NCBI GenBank assembly: GCA_949130485.1
Contig: OX422183.1
Coordinates: 21,879,202-21,943,201, forward strand
Origin: Agelas oroides
Taxonomy: Eukaryota > Porifera > Demospongiae > Agelasida > Agelasidae
Reading direction: 5' to 3'
Length of the DNA: 64,000 nucleotides
Part shown: positions 1-58,689 of the stretch, piece by piece
Position numbering within the stretch: the first letter of the stretch is position 1
Layout of the letters: every line of letters starts with the position of its first letter
Notes under the pieces: model-generated
What the model was told of the DNA's origin: nothing
What the model saw: the letters and a program-made list of their open reading frames with translations, nothing else
Databases searched by the model: none
Made by a program: the position numbers and the translations under genes

Positions 1-1435
1 CTGTCTTGTCTGTCTTGTCTTTCCATCTTGACTGTCTGTCTTGTCTGTCTTGTGTGAAACTGTCTGCCTTGTCTGCCTGTCTGTCTTGTCTGTCTCTGTC
101 TTGTCTGTCTGTCTGTCTTGTCTGTCTTGTCTGTATGTGTCTTCTCTGTCTGTATGTGTCTTGTCTGTATTGTCTGTCTGTCTTGTCTGTCTTTCTGTAT
201 TGTATTTGTCTTGTTTGTCGCTTGCCTATTTTGTCTGTCTTGTCTGTCTTTTCTGTCTGTCTGTCTTGTCTGTCTTGTCTGTCTGTCTGTCTTATCTGTG
301 TGACTGTCTTGTCTGTCTGCGTTGTCTGTCTTTCTGACTGTCTTGTCTGTCTTGTCTGTGTTTTGTGTCTGTGTCTTGTCTGCATGTCTGTCTGGTCTGT
401 CTTGTTGTCTGTCTTGTCTGTTATTCTGTCTGTCTTTGTCTGTGTCTGTCTTGTCTGTCTGCCTTGTCTGTCTCTGTATTGCATTTGTCTTGTCTGTCTC
501 TGTTGTCTGTGCTGTCTGTCTGTCTTGTCTGCCTGTCTGTCTTGTCTGTCTTGTCTGTGTGTATTGTCTGTCTGTCTGTTTTGTTTGTCTTGTCTGTCTG
601 TCTGTGTTGTTTGTCTGTCTTGTCTGTCTGTCTGTCTTGTCTGTGTGACTGTCTTGTCTGTCTGCGTTGTCTGTCTTTCTGACTCTTGTCTGTCTTCCTT
701 GTCTGTCTTTCTTATTGTATTTGTCTTGTCTGTCTTGTCTGTTTTGTGTCTGTCTGTCTTTTCTGCAGTCTGTCTTGTCATTCTTGTCGTCTGTCTTGTC
801 TGTCTGTCTGTCTGTCTTGTCTGTCTGTGTCTGTCTTGTGTGTCTGCCTTGTCTGTCTTTCTGCATTGTATTTGTCTTGTCTGTCTCTTGTCTGTGTTGT
901 CTGTCTGTCTGTCTGTCTGTCTTGTCTGTCTGTCTTGTCTGTCTGTCTTGTCTGTCTGTCTGTGTTGTTTGTCTGTCTTGTCTGTGTTCTTGTCTGTCTG
1001 TCTGTGTTGCCTGTCTTGTCTGTCTTGTCAGTCTGTCTGTCTTATCGTCTGTCTTGTCTGTCTGTCTGTCTTCTCTGGCTCTTGTCTGTCTTGTCTGTCT
1101 GTCTTGTCTGTCTTGTCTGTCTGTGTTGTCTGTCTGTCTTGTCTGTCTGTGTGTCTTGTCTGTCTGTCTTGTGTGTCTGTATTGTCTGTCTGTCTTCTCT
1201 GTCTTGTCTGTCTGTCTGTATTGTCGGTCTGTCTTGTCTGTCTTGTCTCAATCTGTCTGTCCTATCTGTCTTGTCTGTAGTCTGTCGTCTGTCTTGTCTG
1301 TCAGTCTTGTCTGTATGTCTTGTCTGCCTTTTTGTATTGTATTTATCTTGTCTGTATGTCTTGTCTGTCTTTTTGTATTGTATTTATCTTGTCTGTCTGT
1401 CTTGTCAGTCTTGTCTGTCTGTATGTCTGTCTTGT
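1..1435. repeat. TGTC/TGTCT microsatellite array 1
   Basis: Almost pure mixture of TGTC and TGTCT units, running off the left edge of the window. The repeat has few stop codons, so several frames stay open at once on both strands; these open frames are not genes. Occasional islands such as a TCTCTGGCTC variant near 1073 recur in the second array, so the two arrays share history. The array runs directly into retroelement coding sequence at its right edge. Confidence 0.97.
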
Positions 1436-1682
1436 GCAGGAATGACCACAAGCCCTTACACAATAGATTCAGAAACCATTTGAGAGAAATGTTCACCAAA
1501 AGACCAGCTAACTGGGTAGAAACTCGCCTGTATAGACATGTCCAACAGAACCACCACATCCCCTCTGACGTCCAAGTCCAGCCAGTTGAAAGCACAGAAG
1601 ATCGAAGAAGTCTGAAGAAGAAAGTGCTTGGATCAAGGCCTTAATAACAATAGAACCCTACGGACTAAATATCATGACATAG
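1436..1682 (+). pseudogene. GIY-YIG C-terminus of a Penelope-like retroelement, frameshifted
   Basis: The reading frame after the microsatellite holds PLHNRFRNH, RHVQQNHH and then, after a frame change near 1624, WIKAL and EPYGLNIM followed by TAG at 1680-1682. This spacing of R-x-R-x-x-x-H, R-H-x-x-x-H and W-I-x-x-L with P-x-G-L-N is characteristic of the GIY-YIG endonuclease C-terminus of Penelope-like elements and some other retroelements. The reverse transcriptase and the GIY/YIG motifs are missing; the microsatellite lies where they should be. The frameshift and truncation mark it as dead. Family assignment is by motif only. Confidence 0.65.
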
Positions 1683-2040
1683 CCTCCCTACACCTACTGC
1701 CATTGCTCCCGTTTTGTTGTCCCTCCAAAGTTCAATTCCTAGAATATACCTCCCTTATTATTTTTTGTTTGTATTTGAAGTCCCTTTAGGCCTTTTACAT
1801 GCTGTATCCCTTAGGCCTTACATAGTTTACGATAGCATGCTGTTGCCATGGCAAACACGCTATCACTAGATACACGCCGTTGCTAGTTATCATACATGCT
1901 GTTACTAAGCAAACCTATATTTAAGCGCTGTTTCATTTCATTGTACTTACCCTTGAAAAAGCTCTCCATAGATGAGCGAAACGTCGGGCCTCTAAACAGT
2001 GAATAAAGTTTTGCCAACCCCCTCCTACTGTCCTCATCAA
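1683..2040 (+). mobile_element. 3' tail of the Penelope-like element
   Basis: Noncoding tail after the GIY-YIG stop. Near 1968-1990 it contains GATGAGCGAAACGTCGGG. GAAACGTC preceded by a GATGAG block resembles the hammerhead ribozyme remnant reported in the terminal repeats of Penelope-like elements, but stem II is absent here, so an active ribozyme is not claimed. Confidence 0.45.
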
Positions 2041-2664
2041 TAAGCCTATACCGCAGTGCCGCAATATGACGTCACTTTTGAAACTACTGCACTATACTAC
2101 TCGCACCCACACCCTGAGATACGCACTTCGGTCCAGGGAGATCTATACCGAGGAACCGATTACATCCCCGGAGATACTGTCAGAGTCCCCCCAGATGCAG
2201 GATGACAGCATCAGCAGCATACAAGAGACACCGAACAGCCAATTCAGGCTGGTACTCTCGGTAATCCCGTGCATGCCCCGTATAAGTAGTATAGAATCTG
2301 TTAACCATAGCCCTTCCCCCTTACTGTTTAGCCCGGCCCACACCCACCGCAAGCCCAGTCCATGCCCCTACCCCTGATTCCACCCAGGACCAGCCACCTC
2401 CCCCTCCACTTAGCCCCACTAACAGTCTAACCTCTTCCCATAGCACTAGCCCCCAGCATGAAGAATCCCTATCTGGATCCAACGAACTATTCAGCCCCAC
2501 CCCCAGCATAATCCAGAACAAGTGGCCATCACCCCCCCTCTCCCGCAACGACCCCCACCATTAGGAGAAGACACAATTTACACAATTATGTGAGCCTTGA
2601 CTCAACAAATGGGAGCTACGATGTGTGTAGCAGTGTTGGCGCTCCCCCACCCGACACCCCAACG
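2041..2664 (+). other. Unassigned segment with a 103-codon ORF (2066-2377)
   Basis: An ATG ORF at 2066-2377 is rich in Ser, Pro and Thr and contains an SPEILSESPQ stretch; the Pro-rich composition continues out of frame to about 2560. No domain is recognised. Its position just after the Penelope-like tail would fit a tandem second copy's 5' end or the remnant of another element. It may be non-coding. Confidence 0.25.
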
Positions 2665-3900
2665 TCTGCCTTGTCTGTCTTTCTGTATTGTCTGTCTCTC
2701 TGTCTGTCTTCTCTGTCTGCCTTGTCTTTCTGTATTGTATTTGTCTTGTCTGTGTTGTCTGTCTGTCTGTCTTGTCTGCCTGTCTGTCTTGTCGGTCATG
2801 TCTGTCTGTCTTGTTTGTCTTGTCTGTCTTGTTTGTCTTGTCTGTCTTGTTTGTCTTGTCTGTCTTGTTTGTCATGTCTGTCTGTCTGTCTTGTCTGCCT
2901 GTCTGTGTTGTCTGTCTGTCTTGTCAGTCTTTTTCTCTGTCTGTCTGTGTTGCCTGTCTGTCTGTCTAGTCTGTCTATCTGTCTGTCTTGCCTGTCTGTC
3001 TGTCTTGTCTGTCTCTCTTGTCTGTCTGTCTTGTCTATCTGTCTTGTCTGTCTGTCTGTCTTGTCTGTCTTTGTCTTGTCGTCTGTTTATCTGTCTTTTC
3101 TTTCTATCTGTCTTGTCTATCTTGTCTGTCTTGTCTATCTTGTCTGTCTGTCTGTCTTGTCTGTCTTGTCTGCATGTTTTGTCTGTCTTGTCAGTCTGTC
3201 TTATCTGTCTTGTCTGTCTGTCTGTCTTCTCTGGCTCTTGTCTGTCTGTCTTGTTTGTCGGTATGTCTTGTCTGTCTGTCACTCTGTCTTGTCTGTCTGT
3301 CTGTGTCTTGTATCTGTCTTGTCTGTCTGTCTGTCTTGTCTGTCTGTCTGTCTGTCCTTTCTGTCTGTCCGTCTTGTCTGTCTGTCTAGTCTGTGTCTTG
3401 TATGTCTTTCTGTCATGTCTGTTTTGTCTGTCCTGTCTTATCTGTCTTGTCTGTCTTGTCAGTCTGTCTGTCTTGTCTGTCTGTCTGTCTTCTCTGGCTC
3501 TTGTCTGTCTGTCTTGTCTGTCTGTATGTCTTGTCTGTCTGTCACTCTGTCTTGTCTGTCTTGTCAGTCTGTCTGTCTTGTCTGTCTGTCTGTCTTCTCT
3601 GGCTCTTGTCTGTCTGTCTTGTCTGTCTGTATGTCTTGTCTGTCTGTCACTCTGTCTTGTCTGTCTTGTCTGTCTGTCTTGTCTGTCTGTGTCTTGTATC
3701 TGTCTTGTCTGTCTTGTGTGTCTGTCTGTCTGTCTTTCTGTTGTCTGTCTTTCTGTCTGTCTGTCCTTTCGTCTGTCTTTCTTGTCTTTCTTGTCTGTCT
3801 GTCTGTCTGTCTTGTCTGTCTGTCTGTCTTGTCTGTCTGTCTTGTCTGTCTGTCTTGTCTGTCTGTCTGTCTTGTCTGTCTTGTCTGTCTGTCTGTCTGG
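2665..3900. repeat. TGTC/TGTCT microsatellite array 2 with higher-order repeats
   Basis: Same unit mixture as the first array. It has visible higher-order structure: a block carrying TCTCTGGCTC, TCACTCTGTC and TCAGTCTG landmarks recurs at about 3227, 3491 and 3597, the last two 106 bp apart. Its right edge coincides with the left edge of segmental duplication copy 1, while copy 2 has only about 40 bp of TGTC repeat at the matching place (12478-12517), implying expansion in one copy or contraction in the other. Confidence 0.95.
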
Positions 3901-4387
3901 GTAAATTTTGAACTCAGCACATTTACTGGGTTTAACAGTTGCTGTATGCGGGGCTAACATGGCAATCCAAAAAGGAATAATGTATGTGTACCTGGTAGAG
4001 ACCAAAGCAGTTCACTTCTCCATTTCTCCAGCTTTTTACATCAGTATTGTCCACCATTTTCATACGTCAATAACTTAGATATAATGGAGACTGGCCATAC
4101 AAGGACTCCAAACACATGTTCACATTCACTAGCCTCATTACCCTACATGCATGTGCAAGGAGTAAAGTGATCAGTTGTGTCAGTCTGTCGTCGTTGTCTG
4201 TTGGTACAAACATGCCAGTTCTCTAGATCCAGGCCATTCTAAATACCTTCAAACTGTGTGAAACTTTAAACAACTACCTTGTCTGTGCTACTTCATGCTA
4301 GATACACTCAACAAGTGCTTAAAACCCTGCGTTTTGAGTTGGCATCCATAGACACGCCTACTTCTACACCCAAATACCTAGCCACGT

Positions 4388-28679: not shown

Positions 28680-28904
28680 AAAAAGCATTGATCATTGAAC
28701 AGCTAGTGTACAGGCTTGCCGGAATCTCACGAACTTACCACGTCCAGAACACCGCTGCTCAAAGGTAAGATGCTGTACCACTTGTTCCGCATAATAATTA
28801 TGAGTACATGTACTCTATTTTTAGGTCCATCTAAGAGGTAATTACATATGCCACTCCCATTAAATTGTGTTTATGCTTTCATTATATGCTCTACAGATTT
28901 TCCT

Positions 28905-31034
28905 ATGGCGGTCACTGCTTTAGTCTTGATTTTCATGACCACTACCACCATGCTGCAGAGTGTAAATGCTGCACCACTGATCAGCACAGATGATACTCAA
29001 GATACCAACCTGATCAAAGATGAAGGCGTTGAGATTAATGCTATGCAAAAATTTTCACTCTTAGAAGATGGTCTGTTTGAAGGAGACATAGCAGTCACAG
29101 AAGAGTTCATTTGCCAGCACTATAACTTCAGCAGCATACCTGGAGGTGAAAAATATATGACACACGAGAATGAGAACAATTTGACTACTGGAGAGATAAT
29201 GAATAAGCGAGCTGCTGTAAGGAGTAACCACCGATTGTGGACAAACGGAATAGTCCCATATCAATTTTCCACCAGCATTCAAACAAATTATAGACACACC
29301 ATTCGAGACGCTATGGATCATTGGGAAGATCATACTTGCTTACGGTTTACACTCCGAAATGGTGAGAGGGACTATGTGGAGTATAACAACAAAGAGAACG
29401 CATGTTGGTCTTACATTGGTAAAATTGGCGGTGATCAAACAATTAACGTATTCTCAGACAGCAGATCCCGGTGTTCATTTAGAACTATTGTGCATGAAAT
29501 TGGGCATGCTATTGGCTTCTGGCATGAGCAGAGTAGACCAGACCGAGATAATTATGTTCGAATCAACTGGAACAATATCGAACAAAGTAACCAGCATAAT
29601 TTTATGAAACGGACAAACGGTGATGTTGATTCTCGAGGCTCAGAATATGACTATGGTTCAGTGATGCACTATAGTACAAGAACATTTGTGCGAAGGAACT
29701 GCAGAGGTTGTCAATCAATACAAGTCACCAACACCACTGCCTATCGTGCACAGGGTAGTCCAACACTTGGAGAAGCAACTGGACTCAGTGCCAGGGATAC
29801 TGAGCAAGCCAACCGTCTTTATTCATGCCCAAGACGTGGCATAACTGGAGTGCTTGTGGTGCATGTGAATAGTGGACAATCTCTACCAGACACCAATACA
29901 GCTCCTGATCCCTATGTGAAGATCACGGCAGTTGACTCCTCTGGTAGTCATCATGTACGAACAACCAGCGTAAAGCAAGACACCGCAAATGCAACTTGGA
30001 ATGAGGATCTGGAAGTTCCTGAGCATGAGTGGCAGTTTTTCAGAATCCAGGTATGGGACAATGGTACTGATAATAAAATGTCAATTTCAGAGACAGTTGT
30101 GATTGGACAGGGTGAACACAGTAACATTAAACACTGCTTGGATGATGCCTGTCATGGCCATGTGTCATACAACTACGTGATGCTGACGACTGCAACACTA
30201 ACCGTAAATGTGAGATACGGTAAAAATCTGCAAGACACAGATCCAAGAGACAACATTCCTGATCCCTATGTCATTGTGCAAGCCACGAGTTCAACAGGAT
30301 CACACTCCAAACAGACTGCTTGCAAAAGAGAGACTGTGAATCCCACCTGGAACACAGAATTGAACTTTGGTTGTCGAAGATGGGCACCATTGATTGAACT
30401 GCAGGTCTGGGACAATGATGAATCGAGAAATGAAGATGATGCTATGTCTACAAAACAGAAGATAATACTTTCACCTGGGAATCACTCAAATAACATGCAC
30501 AATGCCTCTGGCAGTGGTTACATGATATTTGACTATGACTTTGTCTTAAAGGATGAATGCAGCTCAGATCCTTGCCAAAATGGAGGAACCTGTATAAATG
30601 GATGTGCTGGTTACACTTGTTATTGTAGACATCCTTTCTCAGGACCAAACTGTGAGGATTTGTCTGGCAATCTTCGAGTTTATGCTCGCTATGGACGTAA
30701 TCTAACAGATGAAGATGGACTACCAACTAAAGACGGAGTGGGGAATAACAGTGATCCATACCTGGAGATCATTGCAATTGATGCCTATGGCAACTCAGTC
30801 AGAAAGAAGACATCAACTAAGAGGAGTGATCTGAGCCCAGACTGGAATGAATGGGTTGATTTTGGAACACGTGGATGGAAGCAATTCAAAGTCCGTGTCT
30901 ATGATCATGACAGTAATGCAGATGATCCATTGTCTGATCAAGGTACTTGGACAATATCTTCATATGGGTCACAAAATAGTGTCAGGTTTGACTGCTACAC
31001 GGGCTTTGTAGTTTTTGATTATCGCTTCAATTGA
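28905..31034 (+). CDS. Secreted astacin metalloprotease with three C2 domains and one EGF
   Basis: 709 residues in one exon. Start chosen at 28905 because it lies just after a splice acceptor and gives a good signal peptide (MAVTALVLIFM... cleaved near AVNAAP-like sequence); the frame is open to an upstream ATG at 28848 inside the putative 5'-UTR intron. A propeptide is followed by the astacin catalytic domain (about residues 110-310): zinc site HEIGHAIGFWHEQSRPDRD with first His at 197, and Met-turn SVMHYS with Met 254. Then come a C2 domain (about 315-425, DPYVKI, TWNED), a second (426-548, DPYVIV, TWNTE), an EGF module (549-585, six Cys, CQNGGTC) and a third C2 (586-709, DPYLEI). Astacins are zinc endopeptidases acting on extracellular substrates; extracellular C2 repeats suggest Ca-dependent lipid or matrix contact, which is inference. 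No frameshift or missing catalytic residue was seen. Confidence 0.93.
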   Translation: MAVTALVLIFMTTTTMLQSVNAAPLISTDDTQDTNLIKDEGVEINAMQKFSLLEDGLFEGDIAVTEEFICQHYNFSSIPGGEKYMTHENENNLTTGEIMNKRAAVRSNHRLWTNGIVPYQFSTSIQTNYRHTIRDAMDHWEDHTCLRFTLRNGERDYVEYNNKENACWSYIGKIGGDQTINVFSDSRSRCSFRTIVHEIGHAIGFWHEQSRPDRDNYVRINWNNIEQSNQHNFMKRTNGDVDSRGSEYDYGSVMHYSTRTFVRRNCRGCQSIQVTNTTAYRAQGSPTLGEATGLSARDTEQANRLYSCPRRGITGVLVVHVNSGQSLPDTNTAPDPYVKITAVDSSGSHHVRTTSVKQDTANATWNEDLEVPEHEWQFFRIQVWDNGTDNKMSISETVVIGQGEHSNIKHCLDDACHGHVSYNYVMLTTATLTVNVRYGKNLQDTDPRDNIPDPYVIVQATSSTGSHSKQTACKRETVNPTWNTELNFGCRRWAPLIELQVWDNDESRNEDDAMSTKQKIILSPGNHSNNMHNASGSGYMIFDYDFVLKDECSSDPCQNGGTCINGCAGYTCYCRHPFSGPNCEDLSGNLRVYARYGRNLTDEDGLPTKDGVGNNSDPYLEIIAIDAYGNSVRKKTSTKRSDLSPDWNEWVDFGTRGWKQFKVRVYDHDSNADDPLSDQGTWTISSYGSQNSVRFDCYTGFVVFDYRFN

Positions 31035-44621: not shown

Positions 44622-45008
44622 CTAGGCCATACCAAATTGATCTTATGTTTCACGGATCCGGCCGGGTCTTTTTTTTGAAAATTGAAAAAAATATGTAAAA
44701 ATGCAATTAATATGCACACGTAATCCAGTACTCTCTAGCCTCGTTCCCAGGCCTTCGCGCATTCGTCGATAGCACTACAAATTATCGTGCAGCAAGCGAC
44801 GAACGTGTGAAGGCCTGGGAACAAGGCTAAGTACTCACCACGTGGCAAGAATGGAGGATGGCGAGCTGTTTTGTGTGACTGAGTAGTATCTAATTAAATT
44901 CATGAGAAGTTCGGTCATTTTTATTTTTATTTTTTTGCCTGCCTACCGGGTCATGTTTCTGACCTAAGCAATCCGTGAAACATAAAATCAATTTGGTATG
45001 GCCCTAGC
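44622..45008. mobile_element. Inverted-repeat element disrupted by a MITE
   Basis: Ends CTAGGCCATACCAAATTGAT and, inverted, CTAGGGCCATACCAAATTG with symmetry extending through TTATGTTTCACGGA. It contains the 94-bp MITE at 44736-44829, which therefore inserted later. Confidence 0.88.
44736..44829. mobile_element. 94-bp palindromic MITE with 9-bp target duplication
   Basis: TAGCCTCGTTCCCAGGCCTT at the left and its inverse ending GGGAACAAGGCTA. Flanks AGTACTCTC (44727-44735) and AGTACTCAC (44830-44838) match at 8 of 9 bases. Confidence 0.88.
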
Positions 45009-48000
45009 ATTATTAACTCCACGGATGGGTGCAGGTTTAGGTTTCAAGCGTGCTAACTGCGGTGTGAAAAAGATGTAGGGCTGGGGCATAGCCTTTATGT
45101 TGACCTTTGCTTTTATGTTATCATCCCTACCTTGTTTGCATACTTTTGGCAACTGTACCGACTGGAGTATACTATGTGAAAACTGACCGTCCAGGCGTTA
45201 CCCAAAGCTGTATTTTTTTAGTGTAGCTATAAGTAAGCAACTAAATGCAACTCCATACTTACGTGGTGTCCATGAGCCTTTCCCACAAGGATGCCGTAAA
45301 GTACAGCGTAAACTCCGCATTGAACGTATAAATACAACTTACGGTACGATAAACTGCGCATGCGTACTTCTAAATTTGTCGCGGGTACTTCGCTGGCAAT
45401 AGCAGCGATAGTAGCATGGCGAGCAAAGAGAACCCGGCAGGGAATGAGTCTGGAAGGCAAGAGATTGATGATCTTCCGGAGAAGAGTCACTTGGGCAAGC
45501 CAGAAATTAACAATGACAAGCAGAAATTGGACAAAGGTAGGTATATAAAAGCATAGACAGTATGGCAAATACATAACATGCCTGTATTATAATTTATGTG
45601 GAAGAACTGGCACTTTGCAGTTCAACATTGCAACCTTTCTCAACTACACTTTGAAACAGATACACATATACTGGGTCGCTGCATCTCATGCTACAAGAAC
45701 AAGAGAGGGGCAGAGTACTGTCGGTTGGTGCAGCAGCACAAGGCTGTTCGGGCAACTGCATGCTGTGAATGTGAACAAAATGGGAACAGTGTCACAAAAT
45801 GTCGACAAGAATTGCACCATGATGGTGAAAATGCATTCTACATGAACAAAGTTACCTCAACAGGGTCAGAACTCCCACAATGTTGCCTGGAACTACAAGG
45901 TCTCCAGATGAAGTGCTACTCCTCAAGACCTGGAGAAATGAACGAGCCATATGTAACAGGGTACATGGTGCCTTACAGTGACCGCAACTGGGAAGATTGG
46001 TTTCAACGATTCACTCTACAGACAGGATGTGAATACACAATTCGCTCAGGAAAGCAGAGCAACACACAGTCAAGGGAGACAGGAATGATGGAGACGGAAG
46101 GAAAACTTTTCACATACACTTCTGCATGGTCGCACGCCTATAGCTGCTTGCGTGGTGGTACAGGTCGATTCAAGTCACTTTGTCTTGGGAAGAAAAATCG
46201 CTCATCACTTGGAACTAGACGATTCGGATGTAAAGCAAATTTGCAGGTGCGACTCTTGAATGTGAGTAACGGTGTGCAAGTTTTGGAAATCTAAATACCA
46301 ATGATGAGTGCTCACTTACCTGCACACAACCCATCCTCGGTCACTGACCAACTGACCATGAAGCCGCTTCCACAGATAGAGGAGAAAATTGCTGAGCTTG
46401 TTCAAGAGTCATTTCTGAACCAAAGGGCTTTAAGGCTTTCCCTAAAAACGTGGGTGGAGAAGGAGTTGATACCCAAACACCTCAATGAAGGTGTGATAAC
46501 CAGCAAGCCATCTGATTACAATCGAGCATACTACCCAACGGCTGAAGACATCAGAGTGATGGTCAAAAAGGCAATTACACGAGAGCGAAATTCCCTTTTT
46601 GACCAGGAGGCAGTACTTCAGCTTCTAAAAGAAGAACAAGCCAGGAATGGTTTGAAGTACTATTTTCGGCAGTACAGCAAATGTGATAAAAGGTAATGCA
46701 AATCTAAATCAGTAGCTATTAATTGTTGCATGCACTCAAGTCTTGTACAAACAGCATACTAATTGCCAGCCATTAACCCGCCTCTGTTTATGTAACACTA
46801 TACTCTGTGGTATGTATGGAACATAAATATATGCCTCAGTTGTGACAACTACTTAGGGCAAAGGAAGTGGTCCTCCTTTGAAGTATAGGTGATACTGAGC
46901 TCAGGGCAATAGGAAGCAATAGGAAGTGGGTTCTTTATTTAGAGTACTTACTTGACATTTACTTATTCCTAAAGGAGTCGTTTAAGTGGAGAACAGCCAG
47001 ATAACCAAGCACAAACTGAAAGGTAGGTTTTGCGGAAATTATGGAAGATATATTGTAAGTCTACTAGTCTCTATACACAATTCACTTTAGAAATCCAGAC
47101 ATTCTGAAGGAGATACATGAGGCAGTTAAAAATCTGCGAGAAGTTGAGTCAGAGGGGCTTATTACTCCAGATGCAGACCAATCATTTCTCTTAGTCCTTC
47201 AAACCAAGCAGCAAAGTAAATGGCTGCAGCAGTATGGGAACATAATCACATGCATGGATGCAACATACAAAACACTACGGTATGGATTCCCGTGCTTTTT
47301 TCTGGTGGTAAAAACTGCACTTGGAATTGGTCGTGTGGTGGGGACTATCATTCCTCAATACGAGACAGAAGAGTTTATACAGGAGGAGTTACAGAAGTTA
47401 AAAGAATGGAATCCAGGATGGTCTCCTCAGTTTTTCATGACTGACAAGAGTGCCCAAGAGCTATGTACACAATTGTATGGGGATGTGATGTATAGTATAA
47501 ACAATGAATTGTTTTTGCTGTACCTGATCCACCAGGAGCTGTTGGTGAAGTTCACCCTCACTGCATCAGGTTGATCTGTGACTTCCACACTTTCCAAGCA
47601 CTTGAGAGATGGGTTAACTGCTCATAGCATGGTGTTCCACCTGAAGTGAGAAGCATTGTCAAGGCAGCATTCAAGGAGCTTGTTTATGCCAAGAGTGGTT
47701 AGTAGATTGAACAGACAGCATTTTCACACGTACAGTTGTACATACTGTACTTTCTCAATCTGCAGAGGGACAATATGATGAAATGCTGTCTAAGATCAAG
47801 GGTTCCCACTGGTACACAAACAATGCTCAGCTACAGGCCTACCTAGAAAATGAGTGGCTCAATTGCAAACCTGTAAGTGTATCCCACCTCTTTAAATAGT
47901 ATGAGTAGTAATGGTATTGTTATTGGTTACCACAGCTCTGGTCTCACATACATCGACAACGTTTCCACAACAGTGTTGACACCAACAATTTTACAGAATC

Positions 48001-48405
48001 TGTCAACAATGTCCTCATAAACCATTATCTTACCCTTCGCAATGACAAGTCAGTCTTTTCTCTTACCAAGATTCTCCTCCAGTGTGTCTTCCCAGACCAA
48101 GAAAGAGAATATACTGTTCTAACAGCCAGACAGACAACAGCTTACCGACAGCCAAGAAATGCCTTACCTCATTTCTTGACAAATCGACCAAGTTCAGTCA
48201 CGAGTGCCTGCTTACTTAACATTGAAAAAGGTAAAGCAATAGAAATCTCTTCCATCAAAGAAGAGGATGCTGTGAATGGTGTGTACAGTGTAAAATCAAA
48301 CAGAGGAATGTACAAAGTACAAATCCAGGAAGGAAGTTGTTCATGCCCTTACTTCACACAGAGTAGAATCCCCTGCAAGCACATCTTCAGCATTATCCAG
48401 AATTT

Positions 48406-48663
48406 CAGAACGATATTCCACAGTTGAAAAAGAGTGTTTGGCCATCAAACTTGCAGTGCAAGCCTTCAAAGTCTATCTGTTGGGAAGACCATTCAAGATA
48501 CAAACATCATCGTGCACTTGTGTGGTTGGACCATTTGAAAGAAAATAATGCTCGGTTAACTCGGTGGAGTTTATCACTGCAACCTTATGTGTACTCAGTA
48601 TGCCACCGCACAGGCAGAGCAAATGGGAATGCAGATGCCCTCTCTCGTGCCACGTCAAACTAG
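48406..48663 (+). pseudogene. RNase H fragment of a Ty3/gypsy-type LTR retrotransposon
   Basis: Reads ERYSTVEKECLAIKLAVQAF and YLLGRPFKIQT, then after a one-position frame break HRALVWLDHLKENNARLTRW and HRTGRANGNADALSR, a standard RNase H end in Ty3/gypsy polyproteins. The reverse transcriptase and the integrase expected on either side are missing. Confidence 0.87.
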
Positions 48664-48671
48664 TTTGACGT

Positions 48672-48689
48672 AGGAGAAGGGGGGAGGAG
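48672..48689 (+). other. Polypurine tract
   Basis: AGGAGAAGGGGGGAGGAG immediately 5' of the LTR, the usual plus-strand primer site of LTR retrotransposons. It confirms the LTR boundary. Confidence 0.85.
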
Positions 48690-49071
48690 TGTGAGAGACT
48701 AGACAATCTCACATAATTGTGACTTGCACCTAGAACGTTGATAGTTTGTGTTAATAGTTGTTGGTTATTTGCAGTGTTAAGTTCCTTATTTTGACTCAGT
48801 AGATTAGTACATCAGTGTGCTAATTTGTGCTAACGTGCTACATTTAATCTAGCTACATGCTAATTATGTTTTCCTGCATGTGTGAGTTTAGTTGCTATGT
48901 GTAGACCAGTATAAAAGTAGTTCAGTTTTGTAGTTGTATTGGCTAGTAAATTGGTATTGTGAATCACACTATTCAACTTGGGGAGTCTCTTAGTAGCTAA
49001 ATTGGACCGTGCGGTGATAGTTTCTGCTAGAAAGAGAGCAGCATCTATTACATTTACCTCACTCCCTCACA
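48690..49071 (+). repeat. 3' LTR, 382 bp
   Basis: Starts TGTGAGAG and ends CTCCCTCACA (short inverted ends TGTGAG/CTCACA). It carries a TATAAAAG box near 48911. The host transposase reading frame resumes directly after it (SPFMTLDND), so only a 5'-truncated retrotransposon is present. Confidence 0.85.
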
Positions 49072-51137
49072 GAAAGCCCATTCATGACACTTGACAATGA
49101 CATACTACAGGACGAACACTCTGATTTGTGTGTTGTTGAAGAGGACAAGTCGGCTCCATTTACATCAACTCCAATACCACTCCATCAGACACCTGGCTCC
49201 AAACTGCTTCGCCTGCAAAAGCAGTTGAGGGATGAACTTGCCAAGTGCAGTGCAGCTGTTTTCATGGTTGATGATATAACCATCTTGGAAAATGTGCAGA
49301 GAAAGGTACACAGCATCCATTCAGAGCTGCTATCAACATCTTCCATCTGCGAGAAGGAAGAGGAGCTACCCATTCTCAAGAACTTGATGAAGGAGGAGGT
49401 GTCAGAGTATCGGAGAAAAGCAAAAGTCATAGCACGAGCAAATTAGCTGACTCGTCGATACAAGAAACTGAAGTCAAAGAGCAACACAGGATGTCCAATA
49501 CAACCCAAACGACTAAGACTAAAGGACGATCCCCTCAATGCAGCAACAAGACCTAGTGTGGGTCGCCCTAAAAGCAAAAAGGCAGACACGAATAAGAAAA
49601 CGACTGGCACAGGTATGAGTCACCCCATCTATCACCAGTATTTTCCTTCAACCTTCTTACTTTTTCATGCATTTGGCTATCAATAATTCTTTTGCAGGTA
49701 ACAGTAATATTGCATTCGAGCACCAAGAATTGGATGTATTACCCAAGATTGAAAGCAACAAGGTACCTTTCTTTTCACCCTAGTAGTATTGTTGATAAAA
49801 TCGGTTCATATATCAATGTTTCTTTTGCACAGGAAATGACTGATCTCCCCAGCAGCATTACCACTTTGGCACAAAGTCAACTTAAACCAGGTACCTTACA
49901 CATACATGTAGGTACATCAAATAAACAATCTACAGTTAAACACAATCAACAGTCTAGTGCAGACATCCTTGGGACCAAAATATGTAAGGTGTCTTCATTT
50001 TAGGAGGAGATTAGGATCATGAAGTTGGACATAGTCGAATGTCCTGATCAGATTTAATTCTAGCATGTCCTTCAAAAGGGATTGATTATGCTGGTCAGTG
50101 CAGGGCATGCAAGAGTGTGGATTGTGGTCAGTGCCGATACTGCTTGGATAAGAAGAAGTTTGGTGGGCACAACCGGCTAAAACAATGCTGCATCCACAGA
50201 CGGTGTAATACCTACAATACTTCTTTGAGTGAAAACAAACAACCTCCACCCACACAATCAGCCTTTCATGACACAATCAAGGAATTTCGTGGTATGTTTG
50301 GCTGATGTTTGTTTACAAACTACTACATGCAAGTGTTCAATACAAGCTTACCTCAATTAGGGCACAGTGTGTCGCTGCTAGGATGTCAAACACCTGCAAA
50401 ATCAAAAGAAGAAGTACTGAAAGTAAGTGATACATGGTGCTGCATTGCAATGGAGTAGCTACACCAGGACCCATGCAGGCCTAAGACCTGCTGAATTGAG
50501 TGAGTGCCCAAGTAAAACAATATACTAATAGTAATCCAAGGTCAAAAATCATTGCCCAAAACTAAGGTGCTTTGCATCCTCACTCGTTGATGCATTTGCC
50601 ACCTTGTTTGCATGCTTACTGTCTGTTTGGTGGGGATCGAGATACTGTATGCGACTATGTGCATACACTACTGTAGGTATAGTAAGAAGTGCTCTTGGCA
50701 GATGACAATGGCCTAAAAATGGCTTCAGAATGGCTCTAAATTCAGAGATCATGCTGTGCCCAAGTATCTTTAGAATCCTGGCTACACCACTGGTTCAGTA
50801 TATCATGTGATTGCATAAATTATACCTCTACACTACTATAGGAATTACTAACCAATTCAGCATATGTAAAAATTGGAGACTTTCCTGACGAACCTATCCC
50901 ACCTGAAGTAGGGAACCCCTCCAAGATGCCCAAGTTCAAGGCAGAAGACATTGCACACATTTTGAGCTGTAGTGGTAGGAAAGTGAAGAAAATGCTACCA
51001 GATGGAAACTGTCTCTTCAGAAGTCTATCATTTTGCCTCCATCGTTCCCAAGACAGGCATCTAGAGATAAGGAAAATACTTGTGCAATTCGTTGAAAGAA
51101 ATGGTAACAACTACAAGCATTTACTAGCGATATCGGG

Positions 51138-51842
51138 GTAAAAATTGAAATTCATTTATCACATTAACAACTATGATTTTTGAAAAGAGCATGAAATGGC
51201 GATTCTAACGGTACCAATATCAATAACTTTGAGTCCACATAGCAGGTTGTATGAGCTTAGAAATGCAAGTGATTTGCAGAAAATTTATACGTCGTTTTTG
51301 CGTGATTATGCGTCCGGTACACGTTCCGCAAGCGACTGCAAGTCCAATTGAGATGAAACTCGCTGTGAAGGTTAGTCAGTACCTATTCAGTCCAGTCAAG
51401 GTTGTTCACTTTGAATATCTAGTGTAATGCCTGCACTAGGCTTGATAAACGCTTAAAAAACGGCGTTTTTCGGTTGGAAATAGTAGCATTTCTGCAGGAG
51501 TTGGATCAAAGTCGCAATCAAATACTGCACTGTCCCCTTGGACAACCAGTCTGGTATGCAAAAATGGTTGTTCATTGTTGAATATTGAAAGTCATTGTGA
51601 GCAAAAGTACAAAGTCTGTTATTACCTCAAAAATACACAGAAAAAGGATGAAATATGACGAAAAAGTGCATGCATTCTTGACTAAGGCAGACATTTTCAC
51701 AAAATTAGTAAATGCAAATGTACCTAAGCATCTAAGAAACCTTTGTACTCAATTTGATGCAGATACGTTGTAGCAATGTGTAGATATGGCCTCTGTAGAC
51801 GAAAACTGGCATACTTCTGGAGACTCAAACATCGCTACATTT
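51138..51842. other. Noncoding interruption in the OTU domain of the older MULE
   Basis: About 700 bp separates the first OTU half (ends KHLLAISG) from the second (begins RTLSEHLESTKKSFVWGTQ). The left edge could be a weak GTAAAA donor, but no AG acceptor sits at the right edge, so an insertion is more likely than an intron. No terminal repeats are visible. Confidence 0.55.
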
Positions 51843-52246
51843 ACTTTTTGGACGTACACTTAGCGAACACTTGGAGAGTACGAAGAAATCATTTGTGTGG
51901 GGTACTCAGCTTGAACTTCAAGCTGCTGCAGACTACTATGAGATGTGTATTTATCTTCTCACCAAAAGACAGCAGCAAGAGAGGTACCATTGGCATCGAT
52001 ACACACCCAGGAACAGTGCTGTACCTACAGACAACTTGCCACACATCGAACTTGCTCACCCAGGATCAGTACACTTTGATCCCATCCTTGATGCCGCCAC
52101 ACTTCAGATTCCGAAGTCCGTCCCTCAACTGGATGGTGCTACAGAGTACCTTGAAGACATTCTTTAGTGTTTTACAGTACGTAAGCAAGAACGAGCTAGG
52201 CTATGAATATCAAATTCTATTTATACGTTCAATGCGGAGTTTACAC

Positions 52247-52255: not shown

Positions 52256-55200
52256 TAGTCTCGTCCCCAGACCTAATTTTTCGTGCGTGCCCTGCGGACT
52301 CGTCGAAAAATAGGGTCTGGACACGTTCACTGGTAAAACTGGGGCGTAATCATACGAGCGTATTGGCATGTTGTCGCACCAATCAGATTGCTCAGGTAAA
52401 GTAAATTGCGTTATGCGTCATCACAAATAGCCAGCTTGCAAATTTTTTGGCGCCAAAGCAAATGCTGCTGGTAGCTGATAATGTAATTAACACTTACAAT
52501 TACCCAATTTACGGACCGCCGTATGTAAACGGGATTCGCTTTTTTCACAGCGGTTCATGTGGTCACGTGCGCACTTACCAAGTTTAACCCGGTATGTAAC
52601 ACTGCACTGGCGGCAAGTTCCAACAGATCCGGTGTGCTCGCTGACTGTTAAGTTGACCACCAGGTATGTATTGATGGACAGACTAGAAATCATTCTCTTA
52701 CATGTGGAACGTAAATAGCATCAATGACACTATAACATGTAATGCAAACATTCGTCTGGGCATACAATTGATTAAAATTCTTTGGTATGCAGTGGCATGT
52801 GTGCACAAGTATCAGAGATGGCTCCAAGGTGGGCTGCAGGTTTGCATCAAGTTGGACTGTACTTTGAAGGCTTTGTCAATGATGCACCAGCAGTCTTGGA
52901 GGAATACTACAAGGAGACAGTCACATCTTTCGGTGTGCGTAATTCCAGCAGGAGATGTCACTCACAGCTAGAGCACAAGGAGAATGATGAAACTCAAGAT
53001 GGCAGAAAGGTACAGTTGTACATGTAGATTGAATACTAGCCAGTACATATGGTGTTAATTTTTTACAGAAACCTCAGCCCAGAATATACTGGAGTTACAA
53101 ACAAGGGAATACTACAGTGGAGTTTGGAAATACACCCTTTATTGTAGGAGACAGCCAGCATCTCCAATGCCAGTATGGTCCTCAGTACTATAAATCCAAA
53201 CCAAAGAAAGGAAAACAATTACGTTTGCAAAGCACACGTAAAATTGGATGCCCTGCACATGTTGTCGTCAAACACTACACTCTATTCCCAGAGTATGCTA
53301 TACACCCTGATGATATTGAGGGGAAGAGCAAATACAACCTGCGACTCCTAAAGGAACAAACACTGAAGAAATTGCAGAATGAAATCGAATCTGGATGCAT
53401 CAAGCAGACGACAAGATACTGGTTATCTTTGCCAACAGTAGAGGCACATGAGAAAGCACACCCAGTGAAACAGGCTGCAGTTTTCTCACAGAAGGTTAAC
53501 CCAGCTGTAGCTCAAATGATAGCTGAGTTAGTTGCAGATGGTATTACTGAAATTGATGATGTGAAAAAGTCACTTCGACATCGCATCAACCACTACCTCT
53601 GCAAAGATTCCCCACCAGACCCAAATGATCGAGCATACTTCCCAACACATGATGACTTGAGGAATCATATATACAGAGCAAAACAAGCTCTACAACATTC
53701 AAAATACGACCAAGAAAACCTCAGACTAAAGGTCCTCAACTGGAAGAAAACTCATCCTGATGCAAACTTCTTCTTCCGTCCACGCTGCATTGACAGTGAC
53801 TGCAACAGCACTGCTGCTGAAAGTAAAAAAGAAGGTGAAGTTGATGGCCCTACAGCTAAACAGTCACAGGAAAACTCGTTTCTCTGGATTCACCAGCAAA
53901 AATGGCAAAAAGACCTAATTTTGAAGTATGGGAACACCATTTCCCTAATTGATGCTACACATAAAACCACAAGATATGAGCTTCCACTATTCTTTGTGTG
54001 CGTTCGTACCAATGTTGGCTACTCTGTTGTTGCAGAATTTATTCTGGAATCAGAAAGTACAGAAAGCATCTCTGAGGCACTGCATATTCTACATTGCTGG
54101 AATCCAGAATGGAATCCAAAGTTTTGGATGTGTGATTACTCAGATGCTGAGATATCTGCTCTTGAATGCTGTTTTCCAGACACAATCGTTTACCTCTGTG
54201 ACTTCCATCGTGAACAGGCATGGGAAAGGTGGGTCAAAGATGGGAAACATGGCCTGACATCAGAGGAAGCGGACCAACTCCTGGCTGAGCTGCGGGCTTG
54301 TGCATGGGCACCACCTGGAAAAGAGGGTGAAAATATTGGCATCTGCTACGAAGAATCAGTACGGCACCTCAAACATTCAAAGGTGTGGAAAGATCACCCA
54401 TGTGTCCAGCAGTGGTTATCAACAACATGGCTTTCCATATCACAGGTACCTACATGATGTGCATATGAATGTAATTATGTGGCTGGCTTCTTGACCACAT
54501 ACCAATTAGCAACCCAGTAGCAATGTAAACATGTTACCATGGAGACAAAAGATCCATATCTAGTGTTATGTGTTAGAGCACAAGGTTCTATGGGCTCTCC
54601 TTGGGTTTTCTTATAGGTGGACAAAACCCAGGGACATGCATGGTCATTAGTGTAAACCAAATTCTACCTTGATTGTATCCATTCATGTTGCAGAGATGGG
54701 CACATGCCTATCGTGATTCTGTGTACCATGCTGCCGTCAATACAAACAACGGCATAGAAGCTCAGAATAAGCTCTTCAAGTACAACTTCCTTCCTCGCAA
54801 CAAACAGAGGGCAACTGTCTCTGCCATCACAACTCTACTTGTTGAAGACTACTTGCCAACAGCCTATCAAAAGTACTTGCTGCAAAACTATAAACAAACA
54901 TCTATGTACCGAACCTACAATGACTTTGTGCCTGATAACCTCCGGGACAGACCCAGAAACATCATTCTGCATTGTCTTGACAGGATGGCAAGAAGCCACA
55001 AGCTCACAGCCAGTAACATTATTGACAATGATCAGGAGAAGGGAATATTTGAAATTATGAAATCATCTGGTGCTAAATACAGAGTCAGCTTTGGCAATGA
55101 CAACCCAGATTCTATGCCCTCATGCACATGTCAAGACTGGACAAATTGGCACATACCGTGTAAACACTTTTTCGCCATCTTCAAGCACAGGTCAGCATGG

Positions 55201-57585
55201 CAGTGGAGTAACCTACCACCGAGCTATCTTCACAGCCCATACATATCAACTGATGTTGAGGCTCTGAAGAAGCATTTTGATGGATCTCCTGTTCTCAATC
55301 TGAATGATGACAACGATGTCCATAATGCTGAACTGATACAACAGTCTACACAAAATCTGCAAGTTAAAGTATGTGTTATAATGTACATGTACATCATTAT
55401 GATTTTGTGTATGTTAAAATTGGGCTGGCTGGAGGTAGTAATTTGTGTGGGCAAACAGTACAAACATTTAATTGTTGGTATTGCCGGTCATGTTCAGGTA
55501 TGTCCTTTTACATGTTTGATTGAAAATGCCATCTTTATGATAGTTTGATGATTATTATGACATAAAAATGTTGCTGATAACATGTCTGTATGGTGCTCAC
55601 CTTTCACCCCAGGCAAGGTCTGTTAGTGTGGAGAAAGCCGGTCAGAAGGTTCGCATTGCGCTCAAAAGACTCGAAACATTGTCATATGTGTGTACAGATG
55701 CAGAAATGTTGATGAACTTGCAGTCATCGATACATGACATCACTGAGATGTTCCAAGAGAAACTTCCTTCTCAGGATGGACTCCTTTTGACAGCTACCCA
55801 AACACAAAAACAAGCACTTCGCACAAAGAAGAAATACAAGTCAATCTCTTCAAAGCTGAAACTTGGATATGGTTCCCTACCAAATCCCAAGAGACATGGA
55901 CGAAAAAGAATGAACTCCAAGTTCAGGAATCGTGTTGGGATTCGAGCCAGCAAGCTGCGGAAGGTATGCGTATATCTACACTGGGTGCATGCTTGTGGCT
56001 AAAGTCTTCCTTACATCTACAGTGAAATCTTTTTTTGCTAGGCCTGGTATTTCATGCCAGTATCTTGCTAGTTCAGTATCACATCTACTCACTTGTTTTA
56101 GTTGCTAAGCAACAAACAACAAGGATTCACTCACATCCAACATGAAGATATCTGTTCATACCTTTGTATAGGCACTTGCAGTCTCCAGCAAATCAACCTC
56201 TCTGTCTGACACTGGTTGTCTGCCAAGCCCCTGTGACAATGTACAAGGGAAGAGTGAGCCCACTAAACCACACACAGGTATGATTTATGCAAGCAGAGAC
56301 AGCAGACAACAAATTATCATACGTACTTCTGTAACTATGATCATAGGGATGAAGAGGAAGCGCTGTGGCACCTGTGAAGGATGCCTTTGTACAGACTGTG
56401 GCAAATGCAAATATTGCCTCAACAAGCCAAAGTTTGGGGGACATGGTACACTGAAGCAGTGCTGTGCTAAACGTAGATGTCTTGGGTTAACATCTGCGGA
56501 AGAATCACAAGGTAAGGATATAACATACCTGGCTGAATCACTTTTATTTGTGTTGAATACATTGTCTTCTTAGGATCTCATCAGATGAAGCCTGCTCTAA
56601 CCTCAGGGCCTGCTCCAGCTACACAGCAGATAGGAGATAAGGTGTGTAAAACATACAGTAAACATGGGATCTAATATTATACAGAGTGATCTCAATTCAT
56701 CCACAGGATCCTCTTCAGCAAGCAATAGCTTCTCTATCTGCAAGGGATTGCAAAGTCAAACCTATCTCTGGAGATGGAAATTGCTTGTTCCGTGCCCTTG
56801 CTTTTGTGTTGTATGGCAATGAAATGTGCCATGAGAAAGTACGTGAGCTATTGGTCCAGTTTGTCTCGCAGAACCGAGATAGCTTCAGACCGTACATTGA
56901 TGGTGACTTTGAAAGATACTTGTCTAATATGAGATGTACAAGGGTGTGGGGCACAGCAGTTGAGATACTAGCAACAGCGTCGCTCCTTCAAATTCCTGTA
57001 TTCACCCTAATTCCCAATGTGAATACCTACAAATGGTTCCGTTATAATCCTCTCCGTGGGGATAGGCTTACTTTTCCATCCCAAGATCCACCACCCAAAC
57101 AGCTGTCTCGTCTAAACCACATTGAGCTTCTTAATGTCAGAGGATGCCACTATGACTGTATTTTATCACAACATGGAGATTATCCATTAGATGAGCCTCC
57201 TCTCAACCAAAGTGTTCGTCACTACTGTATTATATAGTTTGTCTGTACATCTTTTATATTGTTTGTGTTATAGACTTTTATATTGTTTGTGTTATAAAAA
57301 GACTTATTTGTACCTTACTATTGGCATTCAAGGTATTCCTACCACCGTCGTCCTGCGTGACCACTCTTTCAGTCATTGTAAATTCGCACTCAGATCCTGT
57401 TTATTTCTAGCGCTAGCGTAGTGCTGTAGGGGTTATTCTTCGCACGTGACCACATGAACCGCTGTGAAAAAAGCGAATCCCATATGTAAACTTGCCCCAG
57501 TTTTCGTAGTGAAAGTGTCCAGACCCTATTTTTCGACAAGGCCGCAGGGCGCGCGCGAAAAATTTGGTGTCTGGGGACGAGACTA
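52256..57585 (+). mobile_element. Younger MULE, 5.33 kb, apparently complete
   Basis: The left end TAGTCTCGTCCCCAGACC is inverted at the right end (GTCTGGGGACGAGACTA). Matching continues through AAAAATAGGGTCTGGACAC and ACTGGGGC, then, after an extra 175 bp on the left only (52346-52520), through GGGATTCGCTTTTTTCACAG and GGTCACGTGCG. The right repeat covers about 57434-57585. Flanked by 9-bp target duplications. Contains one eight-exon gene on the plus strand. Confidence 0.92.
52818..57237 (+). CDS. MULE transposase with SWIM, CXXC and OTU domains (1154 aa, intact)
   Basis: Eight exons: 52818-53009, 53069-54445, 54694-55368, 55613-55963, 56172-56277, 56347-56511, 56574-56641, 56707-57237. All have GT-AG borders and phases that join without a stop (3465 nt). 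Domains: N-terminal basic Cys region with GCPAHVVVKH (about 98-133), a WRKY/GCM1- or FLYWCH-like DNA-binding candidate; MULE DDE core with D359 (LIDATHKT), D420 (WMCDYSDAE) and E545 (NNGIEAQNK) plus LCDFH; SWIM finger C667-x-C669-x9-C679-x-H681; CXXC domain 907-945 (CGTCEGC, CGKCKYC, KFGG, KQCC, RRC), the unmethylated-CpG reader fold of DNMT1/KDM2-type proteins; OTU cysteine protease with C1004 in SGDGNCLFRAL and H1126 in CHYDCI. The OTU part would cleave ubiquitin-type conjugates if active. The ATG is the first Met in the only frame that splices on; an earlier exon is possible. The gene fills the element and is likely its sole product. Confidence 0.92.
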
Positions 57586-57594: not shown

Positions 57595-57739
57595 CGGAAT
57601 CCTTCGAAAATCGCCTCTTTGGTGCGGAGTTCCGTTCCCAGACTGTCTGGAACGAGACAACGTTGGATCATGGAGTCATGGACTGGCTGCCTTGATCTCG
57701 TGACGTGTGGGGGAGAGCCTAACAGACCCAATTTCGAAG

Positions 57740-58689
57740 ATGCCTCCCAATGGTCCAGCTGAATGGCGTGCTAGAATAGGTCACTGGGAGAACAGAAAGC
57801 TGCGGTGGTACCAAGCGCACTGCGGGTGTCGCCCGCGCGTCCCGCTACATCTACACCTGGAGCGGGTGATCTCAGAGGCGCCTCTGTTGTGTGTCCTGCT
57901 GCTACTGTCGCTGATGGGGAAGGTGTCCACCCGCGTATGCGAGACAGGAAATGGTGCGCTCTCCTCTCTGGGCAAGCTATCTCGGTGCTGTGCGAGGGGT
58001 CGGCGTGGAAGGGTATGGGCCACGCCCCTTTTATCTCTCTTTCTGGCACTGTCTTTGTTGCTGGTGGTAGCAGGTGACGTGGAAACCAACCCGGGCCCAA
58101 TCAGCGGTGAGGGAAAGCACTAATTCTTAATGTGACTGATGCCAAGACGTCACTAAGTTCCAATGTGACGGTCATACATGATTTCAAGGTGTTATTTCTT
58201 GTTCCTCAGATGAGCGCCTTGCTCAAGTTGATGATTCTGAGCTAAGTAAGTTTACTTGTGATGTCCTTCAATCTCCAGTATACTGAATAATTACGCATTA
58301 GGTTCATAGGTATACCTCATGGTTCTTGTGCATGGGTAGAGGAAAGAGCTTGAGTTTGTGCATGCTTAGTCCACCAGGATTTCTGAATTGTAAAAGTTCA
58401 GCAAACCACTCTGTTTAATGAACTTTGCATGAATCAGCCAATTTCTCCCTTACAAAAGATATCTTTCACTGACAATGCTTGTGTGAACAATGACGAGGAA
58501 GTGATAAAAATACTCACTCTTTGTTTACAAGAATTATAAAAGTACTGTAGTAGCGATGTAGTAAATGATACAACATGTGCTATTTAAAGTTCACCGATTC
58601 CTTCAATCGATAATGTCTGACTGTTACTATTATATAATGTCACTGAAATTGTCTGAATGTTCACAGGGAACATAACCATACATCAGCAG
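57740..58689 (+). CDS. Leader with 2A translational-recoding motif, 5' part of a gene
   Basis: Exon 1 (57740-58106) starts at ATG (MPPNGPAEWRARIGHW) and ends in a hydrophobic stretch (TPLLSLFLALSLLLVVAG, residues 95-112) directly followed by DVETNPGP (113-120), an exact match to the 2A consensus at which the ribosome skips a peptide bond between Gly and Pro. Another hydrophobic segment lies at about 47-59. Splice donor GTGAGG follows; exons 2 (58210-58245, DERLAQVDDSEL) and 3 (58667-58689, RNITIHQQ) are in phase. Hydrophobic 2A leaders that also work as signal peptides are described for sea urchin and other invertebrate NLR-type proteins, and 2A motifs also occur in non-LTR retrotransposon ORFs; no retrotransposon domain was seen here. 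The remainder of the gene was not identified; the death-domain exon at 63568 is a candidate. Confidence 0.75.

Follow-up and report, generated by a model that had tools for sequence, protein, structure and literature searches.

The DNA analysed here, a stretch of 64,000 nucleotides of contig OX422183.1 of the sponge Agelas oroides, called the window throughout, harbours a Mutator-like element (MULE) whose predicted transposase ends in a CXXC domain followed by an OTU domain. We consider it probable that the element is an apparently autonomous MULE, present here as a young copy, in which one spliced gene encodes a CARF-DDE-SWIM-CXXC-OTU protein, and for its CXXC and OTU domains we infer the roles proposed below. 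The predicted protein opens with a CARF/ALS2CR8 domain, continues with the DDE (MULE) core and a SWIM finger, followed by a CXXC domain that shows type-1 features, and closes with an OTU domain at the C-terminus. Judged from sequence, CXXC and OTU on a MULE are a well-formed and recurrent domain combination within a known superfamily.

The gene lies at 52797-57237, where eight predicted exons can be joined in a single reading frame of 1161 codons, free of stops, with GT/AG at all internal junctions, the splice sites being predicted from sequence. An original prediction had proposed the same eight-exon, stop-free frame, and its 1154 residues correspond to a start at Met8 instead of at 52797; the DDE residues and the OTU Cys/His pair that it named are indeed present, at D366, D427 and E552 (7 higher than in its numbering) and at C1011 and H1133 of the 1161-residue protein. 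Pfam matches of the whole protein comprise MULE (aa 364-451, 7e-10), zf-CXXC (aa 908-952, 1.2e-11) and OTU (aa 1007-1084, 5.2e-14), the last two confirming the domains proposed, together with ZSWIM1-3_RNaseH-like, also matched by the core, and an ALS2CR8/CARF domain (aa 70-278, 1.3e-28) that had gone unnoticed. The proposed SWIM finger stands in part: the whole protein gives no PF04434 report and exon 3 alone scores E 0.0035, below the curated cut-off, but PF04434 matches all six members of the exon 3 alignment of relatives, the best at 2.2e-5. PF10551 matches six of six members of the exon 2 alignment, in which both D residues are invariant, and PF02338 (OTU) matches all six of the OTU alignment; the E of NNGxE is present in five of the six rows of the exon 3 alignment, the sixth (L054) not covering that site. 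No solved chain matched the exon 2 profile at E up to 1.

The two C-terminal domains are complete in the features expected of them. The nearest solved chains to the CXXC domain are KMT2/MLL and DNMT1, and the window copy has all the zinc cysteines, the KFGG linker and the KQ pair, the last kept in seven of nine rows of the CXXC alignment. According to the available part of PMC3685328, zinc cysteines, KFGG and KQ/RQ mark type-1 CXXC domains, KQ being the CpG-reading pair, and we infer that the window domain is of type 1, a predicted binder of non-methylated CpG. For the OTU domain, the nearest solved match is OTUD5, and both the catalytic Cys (in DGNC) and the C-terminal His are invariant in six of six members, pointing to a predicted ubiquitin-cleaving cysteine protease.

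The borders of the element differ from those first assigned. The inverted repeats at 52256-52345 and 57494-57585 and the 9-bp duplication TATACTTTA/TACACTTTA, originally credited to the MULE, belong instead to a 369-bp miniature inverted-repeat transposable element (MITE), as is seen from empty copies of that MITE. Once the MULE and a single 10-bp duplication are taken out, the flanks align ungapped over 369-370 bp to the empty loci L020, L021 and L022 at 97.8, 97.6 and 96.8% identity, respectively; other MULE copies align by blast to the window locus only from ~52526 to ~57495. The alignment of the copies, together with the unoccupied MITE site, rules out MULE borders at 52256 and 57585. Since the empty MITE copies read across the MULE site, the locus is a MULE at 52531-57481 nested inside the 369-bp MITE, with terminal inverted repeats (TIRs) and a 10-bp target duplication of its own (Table 1). 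MULEs generate target duplications of about 8-11 bp. The 369-bp MITE family (52256-52530 plus 57492-57585 in the window; loci L020-L038) has ends TAGTCTCGTCCCC and 9-bp duplications, gives at least 40 matches, scored from 583 candidates, and has a CpG observed/expected ratio (o/e) of 0.93-1.33 in 18 copies; given its MULE-like 9-bp duplication, it may itself depend on a MULE.

The family was active recently. Twelve copies were fetched, the window copy included, and the blast pieces of the close copies are ~97-99.8% identical (93-96% in L050, except for one short exact piece). Three copies, that of the window, L039 and L043, keep the frame open throughout; seven of the 11 others can be spliced over all eight exons, two of these being open and five broken by stops or frame changes, and the remaining four are without some exons or exon parts. 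Exon substitutions relative to the window copy number 6-22 per 2878-3486 bases (0.2-0.6%) in eight copies. Divergence among recent copies is 0.0032 in exons and 0.0035 in introns, as expected of a recent burst, and nonsynonymous to synonymous singletons stand at 38:9, with sites at 3.65:1. In the nine copies with both ends, the 10-bp duplications are exact in five (L040, L042, L043, L048 and L049), carry one mismatch in three (L047, L045/L046 and the window copy) and two in one (L039); in the sequence fetched for L041, L044 and L050, at least one end is missing. The recent transposition originally proposed thus holds on other evidence, namely the 0.2-0.6% exon divergence, the exact duplications in five of nine copies and the empty MITE site, and the young copies and the empty site appear, as indirect evidence, to back excision and reinsertion. 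Allowing no more than one mismatch, 76 places in the genome match a 23-bp TIR piece, mostly outside full copies, and five pairs of such places span 417-444 bp end to end; a MITE family therefore has the same ends as the MULE.

The same domain order recurs elsewhere in the genome. Counts of PF10551, CXXC and OTU are lower bounds, the matches being scored exon by exon, without introns, and those given here and below refer to the matches listed. Besides the close copies, the CXXC-OTU query matches many places at 30-48% identity. An OTU match lies on the same strand and at most 3.5 kb downstream of 53 of the 91 zf-CXXC matches (the OTU set of 87 combining 79 from the OTU search with 8 from the CXXC-OTU query), against a mean of 0.18 and a maximum of 3 such pairs in 1000 runs of random placement. 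PF10551 is found at most 9.5 kb upstream of 26 of these 53 pairs, with a MULE-to-CXXC spacing of 1.7-2.9 kb in 23 of the 26, and with 40 further transposase places added (from 119 rows) a transposase stands upstream, on the same strand and within 9.5 kb, in 39 of the 53. A MULE gene with CXXC and OTU is thus recurrent, the opposite of the case in which no other copy would keep these domains beside the transposase.

Nine diverged loci were fetched, and tblastn matched the transposase in all nine and both CXXC and OTU in seven, L055 having OTU and no CXXC match, and the CXXC and the OTU start of L056 being visible only by frame search; stops or frame breaks occur in some exon in several of the nine. 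Paired TIRs are recognised in four, three of which, all but L057, have exact 10-bp duplications. The TIRs of five families (window, L052, L057, L058 and L060) share a GGG tip, TTCAC at position 14 and CpG within the first 29-32 bp, and intron 2 keeps its position in the relatives examined (GT donor in four of five). The families are 46-52% identical to the window copy in exon 2. Identity at codon positions 1+2 exceeds that at position 3 in exon 2 (0.64/0.36; 15 of 15 pairs, six members), CXXC (0.70/0.40; 21 of 21, seven members) and OTU (0.51/0.32; 15 of 15, six members), and the transposase, CXXC and OTU codons are under constraint across diverged families. From the 53 pairs among 91, the 39 with a transposase, the seven of nine diverged loci and this constraint, MULEs with a predicted CXXC-OTU tail therefore form a diverse group, not a one-off fusion. 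Of the 14 pairs that lack a transposase match, L061 (G000:C8:4990000-4995000) was read, and it has a weak ZSWIM1-3_RNaseH-like match upstream of its CXXC and OTU (E 1.1e-5, just below the cut-off), so that the tail may also occur on another transposase lineage, one more distant. Within ~360 kb of L061, on the same contig, lie three more CXXC-OTU pairs. A search of viral contigs for relatives found none.

In the mechanism we propose, the CXXC domain would hold the transposase on non-methylated CpG, in its CpG-bearing TIRs and/or in CpG-rich target DNA, and this anchoring would tie transposition to unsilenced DNA. The OTU domain, brought to the same place, would strip ubiquitin from the transposase itself, from repair factors or from chromatin, and the removal of ubiquitin would help the transposase to persist or the jump to be completed. 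The original prediction had suggested that the design serves to target or escape CpG-methylated chromatin and to edit ubiquitin marks on host factors, which is a possible mechanism. The bulk of the genome is CpG-poor (mean o/e 0.37 in 15 systematic stretches), and it contains DNA-methylase-family matches, one of them ~4 kb from a zf-CXXC match on C15. In the 250 bp next to insertions, the mean CpG o/e is 1.05 for the MITEs that share the MULE's TIRs (20 flanks) and 0.96 for full MULE copies (17 flanks), against 250-bp backgrounds of 0.36 in the systematic stretches and 0.42 in window tiles; over 500 bp, the flanks average 0.76 for full copies (19 flanks, the window copy included) against 0.40 in window tiles, and 0.94 for the TIR-sharing MITEs. 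The full-copy set at 250 bp comprises nine of the 12 copies, leaving out the window copy, whose flanks are the MITE, and L041 and L050, whose ends are unrecognisable. The TIR-sharing set consists of one-sided flanks drawn in listing order from the 76 matches, exact and outside full copies, with C1:14114328, C6:6080882 and C8:5914080 skipped and none taken after C10:4204816; the systematic set consists of 30 halves from 15 of 16 stretches, one stretch reading N.

Several results weigh against our reading. Control insertions are also CpG-rich, with a mean o/e of 0.78 around 16 copies of a Harbinger-like MITE (16 of 261 matches) and of 0.72 around the 369-bp MITE (18 of 20 loci, giving 36 flanks, with the window copy and the partial L032 left out). 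The difference between full MULE copies and the Harbinger-like set is not significant (p 0.21), and the TIR-sharing MITEs differ from that set only weakly (p 0.037); their comparison with the 369-bp MITE gives p 0.0039 by flank and 0.0075 by site, two flanks of one insertion site not being independent. As regards the domain combination, the 119 PF10551 matches have CXXC and OTU downstream in 26 cases, CXXC only in 4, OTU only in 1 and neither in 88, and 38 of 91 CXXC matches have no OTU and 34 of 87 OTU matches no CXXC. OTU is the least conserved among transposase, CXXC and OTU, and the correlation of transposase with OTU distances in six members is not significant (Mantel r 0.19, a value reached in 161 of 720 permutations). 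KK replaces KQ in two of nine CXXC rows, and the first cysteine is missing in one. CpG-rich landing is thus largely common to the three DNA transposon families tested, with a modest extra in the CXXC family, and because both control MITE families also lie in CpG-rich DNA, CXXC-directed targeting is lowered to a suggestion.

It is quite conceivable, albeit not the account we favour, that the CXXC domain acts on the element's own non-methylated TIRs only, without any choice of target, and that CpG-rich targets are general to DNA transposons in this genome. The CpG near the TIR tips of all five families would fit this account, as would element ends with CpG o/e of 0.6-1.2 and interiors of 0.27-0.35 (one L060 end, at 0.18, being the exception) and the CpG-rich surroundings of both control MITE families. 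However, sites of the TIR-sharing MITEs are somewhat CpG-richer than those of both controls, by the p values above, the low interior CpG may come from coding sequence, and the CpG in such short TIRs may owe something to chance. A bolder version of the proposed mechanism, which we regard as improbable, makes the CXXC-OTU tail a portable anti-silencing and targeting device, a deubiquitinase at non-methylated, CpG-rich DNA that would keep ends and landing sites open. KDM2B with PRC1 is a host CXXC protein that puts ubiquitin on histone H2A; the tail would strip H2A ubiquitin where host CXXC proteins place it, helping transcription and transposition, and would be the transposon's own counterpart, working in reverse, to the Polycomb CXXC-ubiquitin-ligase module.

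That CXXC and OTU form a separate or host gene lying by chance downstream of a MULE seems very unlikely. The 14 of 53 pairs without an upstream transposase match speak for it, as does the fact that the splicing of the one-gene model is predicted; yet the joined frame is stop-free over eight exons, the MULE-CXXC distance stays within 1.7-2.9 kb for 23 of the 26 pairs, several relatives have a match to the exon 4 linker, the whole gene lies between TIRs and 10-bp duplications wherever ends were found, and L061, one of the 14, has its weak ZSWIM-type transposase match upstream. We give equally little credence to the idea that CXXC and OTU are passengers, host domains captured and retained without function. 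Plant Pack-MULEs do capture gene pieces, according to the available part of PMC6431247, and recent copies look neutral in their exon and intron divergence and singletons. But the codon constraint and the invariant Cys and His among families only 46-52% identical in exon 2 argue against it, and copies of such recent origin are too young to reveal selection. A single spliced CARF-DDE-SWIM-CXXC-OTU gene in a young MULE remains the reading that we prefer.

Among known systems, the animal ZSWIM/CARF-type MULE/MuDR relatives share with the window MULE the DDE core, SWIM, TIRs and a duplication of ~9-11 bp, to which the window MULE adds the C-terminal CXXC and OTU and perhaps also the N-terminal CARF/ALS2CR8 domain. 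Ubiquitin/SUMO-type proteases are also carried by Mutator elements of hydra, lancelet and plants, theirs being Ulp1 and that of the window MULE OTU, and Ginger1 transposases, likewise cut-and-paste, have C-terminal OTU or Ulp1 tails on a core of Gypsy-integrase rather than MULE type (both from the available part of PMC2836005). A Ginger1 identity was rejected, the core matching MULE and ZSWIM1-3_RNaseH-like, and none of the matches reported being to an integrase family. OTU is known on Helitrons/Helentrons as well, which use a rolling-circle Rep-helicase, unlike the DDE transposase of the window MULE (PMC2836005 and PMC6431247, as far as available). The type-1 CXXC domains of CFP1, MLL, KDM2 and DNMT1 have the cysteine pattern, KFGG and KQ in common with the window domain, those proteins being host chromatin proteins and no transposases (PMC3685328). 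Placozoan Mutator elements lie at promoters, with targeted integration raised as one option in the accessible part of PMC12221973. The term CXXC is absent from PMC2836005, the paper on Ginger1 and the Ulp1 Mutator elements, and CXXC on a transposase goes unmentioned in the available parts of PMC2836005, PMC10027918, PMC12221973, PMC3685328, PMC12460157 and PMC6431247. Searches of the open-access literature, judged mostly by the titles, abstract starts and passages listed, and reaching few subscription journals and not Repbase, turned up no account of a MULE that carries CXXC or OTU, an absence that is weak evidence.

The window also holds a decayed relative of the MULE just upstream (~46295-52167; Table 1), with matches to a ZSWIM/MULE-type transposase (2.1e-15), CXXC (1.3e-11) and OTU (0.042, below the cut-off); a weak retroelement RNase H-type match lies inside it at 48367-48660. 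About 120 bp past the MITE, a short frame (57704-58123, + strand) encodes a hydrophobic stretch, then GDVETNPGP, which we take to be a 2A-type sequence, and then reaches a possible GT donor. The 379-bp Harbinger-like MITE of the control set, with ends GGCCATACC, occupies 44625-45003, its class being guessed from a 3-bp duplication, CTA or TAA; its ends match 143 times forward and 118 times reverse genome-wide. A single open frame of 730 codons (28842-31034, + strand) encodes an astacin protease, three C2 stretches and an EGF domain. A long low-complexity repeat at 649-4011 is open in several frames, and its part 1435-2663 recurs at 94% in L041.

Table 1. Positions, in window coordinates, of the MULE, its gene, the surrounding MITE and the decayed relative
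Feature	Position	Strand	Remarks
MULE element proper	52531..57481	+	4951 bp; from copy alignments, termini and duplications
Left TIR	52531..52571	+	41 bp, 100% complementary to right arm; starts GGGATTCG; TTCAC at position 14
Right TIR	57441..57481	-	41 bp
Left 10-bp target duplication	52521..52530	.	GTATGTAAAC; 9/10 match to right copy
Right 10-bp target duplication	57482..57491	.	ATATGTAAAC
MITE, left part	52256..52530	+	holds the left TIR first assigned to the MULE; empty copies L020-L022
MITE, right part	57492..57585	+	empty copies L020-L022
Exon 1	52797..53009	+	aa 1-71; N-terminal stretch, conserved among relatives
Exon 2	53069..54445	+	aa 72-530; CARF/ALS2CR8 and MULE core with D366, D427
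Exon 3	54694..55368	+	aa 531-755; E552; SWIM finger ~55078-55167, weak match
Exon 4	55613..55963	+	aa 756-872; linker; several relatives have a match
Exon 5	56172..56277	+	aa 873-907 plus one base
Exon 6	56347..56511	+	CXXC aa 908-952 (DNA to ~56480); KFGG and KQ present
Exon 7	56574..56641	+	aa 963-985
Exon 8	56707..57237	+	aa 986-1161 and stop; OTU; C1011 56782-56784, H1133 57148-57150
Decayed MULE relative	46295..52167	+	transposase pieces 46295-48403, CXXC 50093-50206
Decayed MULE relative, OTU	50959-51117	+	weak; possible further piece 51799-52167 by eye

Several kinds of DNA transposons carry ubiquitin/SUMO proteases, and a part for the ubiquitin pathway in transposition has been proposed (PMC2836005, in its available part). 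Here, such a protease is predicted to be joined to a domain of the CpG-reader type, in a diverse group of MULEs with young, near-identical copies. This would open two matters to direct test, the reason for the presence of ubiquitin-pathway proteases on DNA transposons and the possible ability of a eukaryotic transposase to read DNA methylation itself.

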